Assembly: GCA_902610815.1 (NCBI GenBank)
Contig: CACLXG010000003.1
Span: forward strand, 85,705 to 149,704
Reading direction: 5' to 3'
DNA length: 64,000 nt
DNA from: an uncultured Candidatus Actinomarina sp.
GTDB taxonomy: Bacteria > Actinomycetota > Acidimicrobiia > Actinomarinales > Actinomarinaceae
The translations under genes were made by a program, and so were the position numbers. Shown piece by piece: positions 33,170-38,672 of the stretch. The first letter of the stretch is position 1, and each line of letters begins with the position of its first letter. Under the pieces are notes generated by a model that saw only the letters and a program-made list of their open reading frames with translations, had not been told where the DNA came from and made no database searches.

Positions 33170-34252
33170 TTGAATAAAAAAGCAATTGTTTTTCTTTTAG
33201 TATTTGCAATGGTAATTGTCGCTTGTGGAGACACAGCCGAAGAAGAAGTTGCTGTTGAAGCTACTGAAGAAGAACATGACCACGAAGGGGAATCAACTCT
33301 TGAACAAGTTCAAGAAAGAGGATTCCTTAAGTGCGGTGTTAGCACCGGTGCAACTGGATTCACTGAAGTAGGGGACGACGGTTCTTATTCAGGATTTGAC
33401 GTTGACTACTGTTATGCAGTTGCTGCTGCTGTTTTCGGCGATTACAGTAAAGTTGAATTTAAGCAACTTACTGCTGCTGAAAGATTCACAGCACTTAGCG
33501 CTGGTGAAATCGACGTGTTAATAAGAAACACAACATGGACTCAAAGCCGAGACACTGAGCTTGGTAATGATTTTGGACCAACAACTTACTTTGACGGTCA
33601 ACAATTAATGGGTAGAGTTTCTGATGGACTTTCTTCATCTTCAACTCTTGCTGACATTGATGGTCTAAGAGTATGTACAAATGCTGGTACAACCACTGAA
33701 AAGAATATTACAGAAGGTGCTGGACTTGTAGGAGCTACTATTGAGCTCGTTACAGTTGAAGCATTCTCAGAAGCAATTGACAAGTTCATTGCTGGTGAGT
33801 GTGATATTGTAACAACAGACGGTTCAGGATTAGTTGGTAGAAGAGCAGTTAATGATGCTCTTAATGACTGGGCAATTTTCCCACAATCACCAATTTCAAA
33901 AGAACCATTAGGTCCAACATACAGATCAAATGATAGCCAATGGGCTGACATCATTAACTGGACTGTTTATGCAACAGTCATTGCTGATGAGTATGGAGTT
34001 ACAAGAGCTAACATCGACTCATTTGACTATGATGCTGCACCAGAAATGGGTAGATTATTTGGTAAGAATGACGGAGAGCTTCAAACCAAGATGGGTCTTA
34101 GTGCTGATGCGTATTACAACGTTGTAAAGCAAATCGGTAACTACGACGAAATCTTCTCACGAAACCTAAATCCATTAGGTCTCTATAGAGAAGGTGGAGC
34201 TAACGCTCGCTGGACAGAAGGCGGATTAGTTTACGCACCACCAGCAAGGTAA
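33170..34252 (+). CDS. Amino-acid ABC transporter substrate-binding lipoprotein (AapJ-like)
   Basis: TTG start behind AAAAGGAG; lipobox VIVACGD; RGFLKCGVSTGATGF, GFDVDYCYAVAAAVFGD, IDVLIRNTTWTQSRDTELGNDFGPTTYFDGQQLM. Confidence 0.92.
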   Translation: MNKKAIVFLLVFAMVIVACGDTAEEEVAVEATEEEHDHEGESTLEQVQERGFLKCGVSTGATGFTEVGDDGSYSGFDVDYCYAVAAAVFGDYSKVEFKQLTAAERFTALSAGEIDVLIRNTTWTQSRDTELGNDFGPTTYFDGQQLMGRVSDGLSSSSTLADIDGLRVCTNAGTTTEKNITEGAGLVGATIELVTVEAFSEAIDKFIAGECDIVTTDGSGLVGRRAVNDALNDWAIFPQSPISKEPLGPTYRSNDSQWADIINWTVYATVIADEYGVTRANIDSFDYDAAPEMGRLFGKNDGELQTKMGLSADAYYNVVKQIGNYDEIFSRNLNPLGLYREGGANARWTEGGLVYAPPAR

Positions 34253-34335: not shown

Positions 34336-36135
34336 ATGAAAAATGGACTAAAAGCACTTTCCTTTTTTAGGAATGTTGTTTTTCTAAAGTGGGCATCACA
34401 AATCATTTTTCTAGTAGGTCTTTTATACATAATCTGGAGCTATATTCAGAATGCAGTTGTAAATCTTGAACAAACAAATATAGCTTTTTCATGGGGATGG
34501 TTAGGAGAAACACCAGGTGTTTCGATAGCAGAAGGCATGTATACTCTTCCTAATTCTGGTCGTCAGATGATTCAAGTTGGAATGTTAAATATGTTAAGAG
34601 TCACAGTCACAGGTATTTTTGCTGCTACATTTTTAGGTACGTTTCTTGGAATTGCTCGACTTTCAAAAAACTATATAGTCGAGAAAACCTCCACAGGCCT
34701 TCTAGAGGTTGTTCGTAATGTTCCCTTACTAGTCCAAATTTTCTTCTTCCAAGCTTTTGTTTTAACTTTTCCTAGACTTGAGGTTTTTGATGTAGGGACA
34801 TATAACCTTCATGTGAGCGCAAAAGGCATTGCTTTCCCGTGGCTAAATAGACAGCCCACAGCATATTTATTTTGGGTTTATCTATTGGCTATTCTTATTT
34901 TGGCTAACAGAATTTATAAATGGCGGGTACAAATTCTTGAAAGAGAAGGTAGAGAAACTAGGCCTTTTCTTTGGTCAGTTGGAATCTTTCTCGGACTACT
35001 AGTCGCTGGCTGGTATGGAGGATATCGAATCATGGGTATCATTGGATTTTTAGCTGGCTATATTTCAACCGGAGTTGACCTTCTACCTGCAATCTTTTAT
35101 CAGATACTTTTCTCTTCAATTGCAGTATTTATTGGTTTCAAGTCTACAAAGAAGTTTATAGATAGTAAAAAATCAGAAGAAGCACAAGGAATTTATAGCG
35201 ACGATGATTATTTTAAAATAATATTAAATGTCATAGTTGTATTACTAGTTGTTGTTTTAATGTTTTCTTCTGTAGGATTGGGTCTTTCTAACTTTTTAGT
35301 TGGTGACGAAATTGTTTTTAAAGCTGACTGGGGAGTTCCACAGTTCTTTGACGGAGTTAATAATAAATTATATTGGAACCCAGAAGCAAAAATTGTATTA
35401 GATCCTCAACTGGACGGAATGAAAAGAGCAGAAATCATAGATTGGATTGCCGTCCCCGGAACAGAAGTGACAGAGGGTGATGTGGTAGCAAGAGCCACAG
35501 CAAAAGACTTAAAGGGAGATTTAAATCAAGAAATTTCTATTTATGCGAAATACACAGGTGTAATAGAAGAAGTTTTTGTGTCTGAGGGAGACACTGTAAA
35601 AATAAATGAAAAAACATATGACATTCGAGTAACAGACAGCAAGCCATTAGAACTTTCAAGACCACGGGTTGAACAAATCGGAACAACTAAATTTAAAAGA
35701 TATGCTGATGGGTATGGCAAAAGCCTTTCCGTAGGATATTTTGCTATTTGGCTTGGCGTAGTGCTCTATACTGCAATATTTATCTCAGAAGTAGTTAGAG
35801 CTGGAATAATGGCAGTTTCAAAAGGACAGTCTGAAGCAGGTCTTTCTCTTGGACTAGGAAGGGGTGCCCTATTAAGGTTAGTTGTCTTACCGCAGGCAAT
35901 AAGGGTAATGCTTCCACCAATGGGTAATCAATATCTAAACCTTGCCAAGAACACGTCTTTAGGGATAGCCGTGGCATATCCAGAAATTGTTGCAGTAGGA
36001 CAAACTTTATACAATCAAGAAGGGCAGACATTGCCAGTATTTTTAATCTGGATGGCATTTTATAGTACAGTAAGTTTGACTATTTCAACAATAATCAATT
36101 ATTACAATAGAAAAATGAAGATAGTGGAGAGGTAA
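34336..36135 (+). CDS. General amino-acid ABC permease (AapQ-like) with inserted biotinyl/lipoyl-like domain
   Basis: VEVVRNVPLLVQIFFFQ, FISEVVRAGIMAVSKGQSEAGLSLGLGRG, PPMGNQYLNLAKNTSLGIAVAYPEIV; extra segment DWIAVPGTEVTEGDVVARA...AKYTGVIEEVFVSEGDTV. Confidence 0.9.
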   Translation: MKNGLKALSFFRNVVFLKWASQIIFLVGLLYIIWSYIQNAVVNLEQTNIAFSWGWLGETPGVSIAEGMYTLPNSGRQMIQVGMLNMLRVTVTGIFAATFLGTFLGIARLSKNYIVEKTSTGLLEVVRNVPLLVQIFFFQAFVLTFPRLEVFDVGTYNLHVSAKGIAFPWLNRQPTAYLFWVYLLAILILANRIYKWRVQILEREGRETRPFLWSVGIFLGLLVAGWYGGYRIMGIIGFLAGYISTGVDLLPAIFYQILFSSIAVFIGFKSTKKFIDSKKSEEAQGIYSDDDYFKIILNVIVVLLVVVLMFSSVGLGLSNFLVGDEIVFKADWGVPQFFDGVNNKLYWNPEAKIVLDPQLDGMKRAEIIDWIAVPGTEVTEGDVVARATAKDLKGDLNQEISIYAKYTGVIEEVFVSEGDTVKINEKTYDIRVTDSKPLELSRPRVEQIGTTKFKRYADGYGKSLSVGYFAIWLGVVLYTAIFISEVVRAGIMAVSKGQSEAGLSLGLGRGALLRLVVLPQAIRVMLPPMGNQYLNLAKNTSLGIAVAYPEIVAVGQTLYNQEGQTLPVFLIWMAFYSTVSLTISTIINYYNRKMKIVER

Positions 36136-37937
36136 TGGTTGATTTAATTAAAAAGAATGTAAAGTCATTACAGGAGAGTCTGTTCTCATCAATTGGATCT
36201 TCAGTTTTAACCATAGCCACAACCTATCTTGTAATTAACTTTTTCAGAGGAATGCTTGGTTTTGCATTAACGTCAGACAAAGACTGGCTAGCCGTGTTAA
36301 ATAATATGCAGCTTTACATGGTTCAAGCCTACCCTGAGGAGGACTTCATTAGAGTTTGGCTATCAGTAGGACTTACTTTTGTTCTTGCAGGGCTATCAAT
36401 TGGTATTTGGAGAAGCGAAGAAAGGGTCAAAAGTTCACAAGTTTTTAATTCATTTTTCAAGGGAGGTCTTGGTGTATTATTTTTTACAATCATTGCTCCA
36501 ACAAATGCCAGTTTTATGGGAAATGATGGATCTGTCATAACAGAAGAAGTCTTTTCTATGGATTCAAGGTTAGGGATATTGATTCCGGTTGTTGTTTTTT
36601 GTGTAATATTTTTTAGTATTCGATTTATAAACGTGAAATTTACTGTAAATAGTTCTGACATGGTTTTCTTTTATTTATTTATTCCAGTAGCACTTCTTTG
36701 GTTTGTAAAGCTTCCAACTATTCAACTAGATCAAAATAATGAAAGAATTATTCCTGACCCCATAATGCCTATAGCTAGTAGCACAAAAATTCCGTGGACA
36801 GTTATTTTTGTATCATTCTTAGTTAGTTACTTTATTGGAATGTATCTTAAAAATATAAAAAGTATTAAATCAATCATGTCTTTATCGTGGTTTTTACTAC
36901 CTCTTTTAATTTTTTCTTGGATATTCAAAAAACCACAAATTGATATGTCACTTGTGCTTGGTAGTGATCTTCCTATATTCGGAGTCTTCTTGCTTTGGGG
37001 TTTTCTAGTAATTACTTTTGTAAATAACTCTATTTTTAAAAAATATTATTCAACCTACTTAGGTGTAACATTTCTATTGACACTTGCTGGAGTGTTTTCT
37101 GGTTTACCAATGTTGGCTAAAACTTGCTTGCTTTTAATAACTTTATTTTCTGTTGTAGTACCAGCGGTATCAACCTCGTCACAGGGTAAAAGGAGTCTTT
37201 TAATCGTATGGGCGGTTGCGTTAGTTACTCTCACTTTTCTTCTTAGAGGGGGAGCATCAGATACAGGTATAGTTGTTCCAGGTTCAAGTATTTTTGGAGG
37301 TTTCTCTTTAACTTGGTTACTAGCAATTTTTGGCACATATGTATCATTCCCGCTTGGTGTCTTATTGGCATTAGGAAGAAATTCAAAATTACCAATAATT
37401 AGAATTGTTTGTACTGGAATTATAGAATTAACTAGGTCTGTTCCATACATAACCTGGCTATTTTTTGCAAGCGTTACATTAGCAGTATTTTTACCTGCAG
37501 GAGTTGAGTTTAATCTAATAGTTAGAGTATTAATGGTTACAGCATTCTTCAGTGGAGCATATTTTGCTGAAAATATCAGGGGTGGATTACAGTCAATTCC
37601 AAAAGGTCAATATGAAGCAGCTGATGCAATAGGAATGAGTCCTTTTCAGAAGATTTCTTTAATTATTATGCCACAGGCCTTAAGAGCTGTTATACCTACA
37701 TTGGTCAGCAGTGCTATCACCGCTTTTAAAGACTCCAGCCTTGTAACAATTATTGGATTATTTGATTTTCTCACTATTGGAAAAACTGTTATCGGAAATC
37801 AATCAATACCTGTAAACTTTGTAGGTCACGATAGAGAGAATTTAATTTTTGTTGCAATTGTGTATTGGATATTTACATTTACGCTTTCAAGACGAAGCAT
37901 GAAAGTTGAAAAGAAGTTAGGATTAGGAGAAAGGTAA
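36135..37937 (+). CDS. General amino-acid ABC permease (AapM-like), extended by extra TM region
   Basis: ELTRSVPYITWLFFASV, FFSGAYFAENIRGGLQSIPKGQYEAADAIGMSPFQKISLIIMPQALRAVIPTLVSSAITAFKDSSL. Confidence 0.9.
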   Translation: MVDLIKKNVKSLQESLFSSIGSSVLTIATTYLVINFFRGMLGFALTSDKDWLAVLNNMQLYMVQAYPEEDFIRVWLSVGLTFVLAGLSIGIWRSEERVKSSQVFNSFFKGGLGVLFFTIIAPTNASFMGNDGSVITEEVFSMDSRLGILIPVVVFCVIFFSIRFINVKFTVNSSDMVFFYLFIPVALLWFVKLPTIQLDQNNERIIPDPIMPIASSTKIPWTVIFVSFLVSYFIGMYLKNIKSIKSIMSLSWFLLPLLIFSWIFKKPQIDMSLVLGSDLPIFGVFLLWGFLVITFVNNSIFKKYYSTYLGVTFLLTLAGVFSGLPMLAKTCLLLITLFSVVVPAVSTSSQGKRSLLIVWAVALVTLTFLLRGGASDTGIVVPGSSIFGGFSLTWLLAIFGTYVSFPLGVLLALGRNSKLPIIRIVCTGIIELTRSVPYITWLFFASVTLAVFLPAGVEFNLIVRVLMVTAFFSGAYFAENIRGGLQSIPKGQYEAADAIGMSPFQKISLIIMPQALRAVIPTLVSSAITAFKDSSLVTIIGLFDFLTIGKTVIGNQSIPVNFVGHDRENLIFVAIVYWIFTFTLSRRSMKVEKKLGLGER

Positions 37938-37943
37938 TCGCTT

Positions 37944-38672
37944 ATGAGCATAATTCAAACAAAAGATGTTAAAAAATGGTTTGGAGACTTCCAAGCATTA
38001 AAAGGTATAAGTATGGATGTAGCCGAAGGAGAGGTCCTTGTTGTCTGCGGGCCTTCAGGTTCAGGCAAGTCTACGTTTATTAGATGTATTAACAGACTTG
38101 AGCAACACCAAGAAGGGCAAATAATTGTTGATGGAATTGAGCTTACAAATGATTTAAAGAATATTGAAGCAATTAGGTCTGAAGTGGGAATGGTTTTCCA
38201 AAGCTTCAATCTTTTTCCACACTTAACTGTAATGCAGAACATTACTCTTGCACAGATATGGGTTAGGAAAAAGAATAGAGCTGAATCAGAGGAAAAAGCA
38301 ATGGAACTTCTAGAGCGAGTGGGAATTCCTGAGCAAGCACAAAAATTCCCAGGACAATTATCAGGTGGACAGCAACAAAGAGTTGCTATAGCAAGAGCAC
38401 TTGCAATGGAGCCAAAAATTATGCTTTTTGATGAGCCAACTTCAGCATTAGACCCTGAAATGATTAAAGAAGTTCTAGATGTAATGAAAGAGCTAGCTAA
38501 GTCTGGAATGACAATGATTGTTGTTACTCATGAAATGGGATTTGCTAAAGAGGTTGCCGATAGAGTTATGTTATTTGACGAGGGTATGCTTGTTGAAGAA
38601 AATACTCCAGAAGAATTCTTCAACAATCCAAAGAGTGATAGAACTAAACTTTTCTTAAGTCAGATTCTCTAG
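37944..38672 (+). CDS. Amino-acid ABC transporter ATP-binding protein (AapP/GlnQ-like)
   Basis: [54 protein letters not shown]. Confidence 0.95.

Follow-up and report, generated by a model that had tools for sequence, protein, structure and literature searches.

The locus studied here raises the question of how a lipoyl-type domain came to lie within the permease of an amino-acid ABC importer and what it may do there. The window, i.e. the whole stretch of 64,000 nucleotides analysed, belongs to a Candidatus Actinomarina genome of 1.1 Mb being 94% complete. It encodes on the forward (+) strand an operon composed of the cognate substrate-binding lipoprotein of family 3 (33170..34252; AapJ-like, SBP_bac_3, lipobox-like start), the AapQ-like polar amino-acid ABC permease of 599 aa carrying the insert (34336..36135), an AapM-like partner permease of 600 aa (36135..37937) and an ABC ATPase (37944..38672; ABC_tran, 2.7e-40). 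The insert-carrying permease contains the domains HEQRo_perm_3TM (residues 78-138) and BPD_transp_1 (residues 469-594), and the BPD_transp_1 core, the EAA loop and the presence of a binding protein and an ATPase in the operon assign it to the AapQ/HisM type of polar amino-acid ABC permeases. It shares the core and the operon order binding protein-permease-permease-ATPase with the AapQ-type general L-amino-acid permeases, from which it differs in that the whole Acidimicrobiia subfamily is longer and in that the lipoyl insert is found in an Actinomarina clade only. The partner permease shows a long N-terminal membrane extension with ~385 additional, mostly hydrophobic residues ahead of the core domain, this extension being highly variable among lineages. 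A promoter scan revealed no signal above chance, and six terminator-like sites were found compared to 3.0 expected.

The preliminary description had reported two half-motifs of a biotinyl/lipoyl-type fold in this permease, and both are found there within an insert spanning residues 349-433 (35380..35634, +). The first half-motif, DGMKRAEIIDWIAVPGTEVTEGDVVAR (35416..35496, +), aligns to the first half of the lipoyl domains in E2 and in the free lipoyl proteins, and the second, about ISIYAKYTGVIEEVFVSEGDTVKINEKTYDIR, covers 35533..35628 (+). The insert is framed by native outer-loop flanks, residues 315-348 (35278..35379, +) and 434-465 (35635..35730, +), both being common to insert-free orthologues. 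Taken as a fragment, the window's insert scores 24-25 bits with PF00364 (Biotin_lipoyl), above the cut-off of 22.1 bits, whereas the whole 599-aa protein scores just below it with 19.6 bits. This last value might point to a chance resemblance or an assembly artefact, a reading which is refuted by the match of all 19 distinct inserts to this one family (best E 6.5e-11), by the agreement of the structure prediction and by the presence of the insert in 20 genomes, comprising many independent assemblies of both single cells and MAGs. A whole-genome search revealed four places matching PF00364 in the window genome, i.e. the insert, E2, a BCCP-bearing carboxylase and GcvH, the identities of the latter three being assigned by reading the ORFs.

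Searching the PDB with the insert profile returned E2 lipoyl domains at the top (1LAB, 3.5e-5), and the NCBIfam matches of the inserts are mostly E2 lipoyl domains as well. AlphaFold2 models the insert alone poorly (pLDDT 53.6); the Foldseek matches of this model are nearly all lipoyl or biotinyl domains. The domain is modelled better within the whole protein (mean pLDDT 66, insert ~50-67), for which the core helices match ArtQ (4yms) and the insert forms strands at residues 350-353, 362-370, 383-391, 398-403, 408-412, 420-422 and 428-431. The insert model, which is of moderate confidence, superposes on the E2 lipoyl domain 3crk_C with a TM-score of 0.80 (target length) and 2.0 A, and Foldseek assigns a probability of 1.0 to lipoyl/biotinyl domains. 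The barrel-sandwich domain suspected earlier is thus supported by sequence profiles and the predicted structure alike, and by a distribution among the genomes in which presence and absence are cleanly separated. Judged by its sequence it is lipoyl-type, not biotinyl-type; a biotinyl origin was rejected, BCCP scoring far below the lipoyl proteins.

The insert explains only part of the unusual length noted for this permease. The protein is long with its 599 aa, but only ~83 residues of the excess represent the lipoyl domain, and insert-free orthologues already reach ~505-545 aa because of extra membrane segments in the whole Acidimicrobiia subfamily. The permease gene is present in 39 of the 42 genomes of the Actinomarina genus group, 20 of which contain the insert (19 complete, one partial), the remaining 19 lacking it cleanly. 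The alignment of the filled site 'NKLYW[about 85 aa]TDSKPLELSRP' with the empty site 'NALDWSITGTPYELN' shows a clean insertion. In a tree calculated without the insert columns the carriers form one clade (support 99/96) and a single change is needed, so the insert was gained once.

Among 395 Acidimicrobiia genomes, 164 match the permease at 1e-40, and close orthologues occur in only five of 397 phylum genomes, all of them Acidimicrobiia. No second lipoyl insert was observed in the 20 of these Acidimicrobiia sequences compared residue by residue, the main over-long ones included, most other full-length frames being ~505-545 aa and a few, of 546-563 aa, having been read in part. A lipoyl domain elsewhere in the permease family was rejected, as the over-long frames compared in the search of the 395 Acidimicrobiia and 397 phylum genomes contained other inserts. 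Among the frames compared, the domain is confined to one Actinomarina clade instead of being a standard part of the permease family; the preliminary description had called it unexpected. Three Acidimicrobiia genomes (L082, L083 and L084 of G227, G111 and G301) show an unrelated, apparently helical insert of ~110 aa in the same loop, for which neither a Pfam match above cut-off nor a PDB match was obtained. The loop has thus received an insertion twice, independently, which shows that the site accepts domains. In two further loci (L085 and L086 of G338 and G324) the orthologous permease contains a long hydrophobic insertion in a cytoplasmic-side loop being short in the others.

As to the source of the domain, a free lipoyl protein of ~90 aa, adjoining PDH-type E1 alpha/beta genes, is encoded in several Actinomarina genomes, both carriers and non-carriers of the insert. 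With the insert profile the free lipoyl proteins reach 38-43 bits compared to 25-28 bits for E2, and taken one by one, 18 of the 19 inserts resemble the former more closely. In trees of 82 columns the inserts and the free lipoyl proteins group together with a support of 98/100, rising to 100/100 when long-branch rows are left out. Constrained alternative origins were not rejected by the AU test (p 0.17 for E2, 0.20 for an acetoin-type origin). These sequence comparisons favour, but do not prove, the free-standing Actinomarina lipoyl protein as donor of the insert, with E2 being a possible, second-best candidate. At L133-L139 (e.g. L135:2042-2311) PDH-type E1 alpha and E1 beta form an operon with the free-standing ~90-aa lipoyl protein; no E2 catalytic domain was found in the ~4 kb read at these loci, and genes for mannitol PTS IIC or HPr lie near the operon in those scanned.

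The position of the insert relative to the membrane can be derived from the core of the transporter. Polar amino-acid permeases have a fixed core topology of five helices. ArtQ (4yms) residues 17-93 and 95-215 align to permease residues 81-156 and 475-595, so that almost all of residues 157-474 belongs to an expanded outer TM2-TM3 turn. The helix formed by residues 466-493, with the insert located just ahead of it, runs into the EAA coupling loop; as this loop must be cytoplasmic, the other end of the helix and the insert should lie outside, irrespective of the number of upstream helices. The basic loops 195-211 and 268-292 and the C-terminus are consistent with an inside location, and the insert is acidic. 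The topology thus suggests the lipoyl-type insert being placed on the outer face of the membrane in the loop joining core helices 2 and 3. The expansion between the core helices also contains a DDDxF motif at residues 289-293 (35200-35214) being invariant across the 39 aligned orthologues.

The insert resembles the lipoyl domains of E2 and the free lipoyl proteins (PF00364) in whole-domain sequence, predicted fold, half-motifs and the G/W/PG/GD positions, but it differs from them in the cofactor-bearing region and in being part of a membrane protein with a likely location outside the cell. True carriers, such as E2 and the free lipoyl proteins, bear the lipoyl-lysine in a tight hairpin (DK motif); in the window this place is taken by Asn397 (codon 35524..35526, +), and Asn is found in all eight rows of the window's clade. 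The lysine hairpin of the insert is furthermore ~6 residues longer than in lipoylated carriers. As for the lipoylatable Lys considered in the preliminary description, it is present in 10 of 19 inserts, four of these showing 'DK', but lost in the window's clade and replaced by Thr in one insert (L014). The Lys-bearing inserts and a LipB-like protein encoded beside E2 in the genome could speak for a working lipoylated domain, e.g. a redox switch or carrier; we regard this as very improbable given the Asn and Thr residues, the longer loop and a probable location on the far side of the membrane from the cytoplasmic lipoylation enzymes. Because the lysine is lost in the window's clade, the loop is longer and the location is probably outside, lipoylation of the insert is unlikely, and the domain is probably without cofactor.

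A lipoyl fold lacking the modified lysine is known from the periplasmic adaptors HlyD, AcrA and MacA, in which a hairpin takes the place of the lysine loop (PMC4446572). These adaptors resemble the insert in having a lipoyl fold outside the membrane, a replaced or extended lysine loop and a tie to a transporter (PMC4446572), but they act in exporters as proteins of their own and bear a helical hairpin in this loop, whereas the insert is part of an importer permease with a short loop extension only. HlyD_D23 and related profiles match the insert weakly and cover the lipoyl half-motif only, which does not place it among HlyD-type adaptors with their helical hairpin and beta-barrel domain. An analogy for a role is provided by MalF-P2 of the maltose ABC importer. 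Like the insert, it is a folded domain located in an outer loop of the permease, the importer being of type I, and it makes direct contact with MalE (PMC3150292). It differs in its size of ~180 residues, is not homologous to the insert by anything tested and touches MalE, while a contact of the insert is putative.

We tentatively favour a model, holding it slightly less probable than even, according to which a lipoyl domain was copied, most likely from the small free-standing Actinomarina lipoyl protein, and entered the permease in a single event, within the outward-facing loop that joins core helices 2 and 3. The domesticated, unlipoylated fold would serve as a folded exofacial contact or spacer module beside the dock of the lipoprotein-type binding protein, where it might steady or position the binding protein or the channel mouth, as MalF-P2 does in the maltose importer. 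The clean insertion, the single gain, the lipoyl profile and fold, the proximity to the free lipoyl proteins, the outer topology, the lysine lost in the window's clade with the lengthened loop, the MalE contact of MalF-P2 and a low omega within clades (0.07, 0.21 and 0.04) are in favour of this model, the omega values showing the insert being under purifying selection within clades. Between clades, in contrast, the insert is the fastest-evolving and least conserved part of the transporter, with an identity of 36-46% compared to 63-67% for the flanking loop, 86-93% for the permease core, 83-92% for the binding protein and 69-80% for the partner permease. As regards the putative docking role raised in the preliminary description, so rapid a divergence next to a conserved binding protein speaks against a dock under tight conservation. 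The lack of linked changes in the partners as well as the sister lineages without insert also count against the model. The idea that the insert co-evolved with the binding protein or the partner permease was rejected, as neither showed insert-linked indels.

An alternative is a passenger tolerated after an accidental insertion at an insertion-tolerant outer loop, having no role of its own, with selection keeping only the insert fold to avoid harm to the permease. This possibility, which we consider nearly as likely as the contact or spacer module, would account for the fast divergence between clades with retention of the fold residues, for the partner proteins without linked change and for the unrelated ~110-aa insert at the same loop in another Acidimicrobiia group. 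It is less easily reconciled with the low within-clade omega, with the fact that all sampled lineages descending from the gain have retained the insert although the genus is strongly streamlined, and with pseudogenised or shortened copies not being seen. An exposed outer position and an amino-acid sequence diverging faster than any other part of the operon would also suit a variable shield, in which the domain diversifies under pressure from phages or grazers and masks a conserved transporter. We consider such a shield improbable, as a receptor role is putative and omega is below 1 in all comparisons, the between-clade ratios being rough with dS near saturation.

The lipoyl fold, the permease type and the idea of an outer-loop domain are already known, while their combination appears to be new: in the open-licence literature searched, no previous description of an ABC importer permease with a lipoyl domain was encountered, and the insert is not mentioned in the Actinomarinales genome paper (PMC7771536). 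The finding provides one more example of a transport system with a lipoyl fold beyond the membrane, here an importer and not an exporter. It represents a domain insertion of single origin into a membrane transporter for which orthologues with an empty site and the likely donor gene persist in the same genus, and the effect of the insertion on an ABC importer is therefore directly testable. It is conceivable, albeit rather unlikely at present, that a metabolic carrier domain was recruited to an ABC importer, where it became a new exofacial subdomain altering recruitment or release of the binding protein; a single insertion with a traceable donor would then have changed amino-acid uptake in one clade of these marine bacteria with their streamlined genomes.
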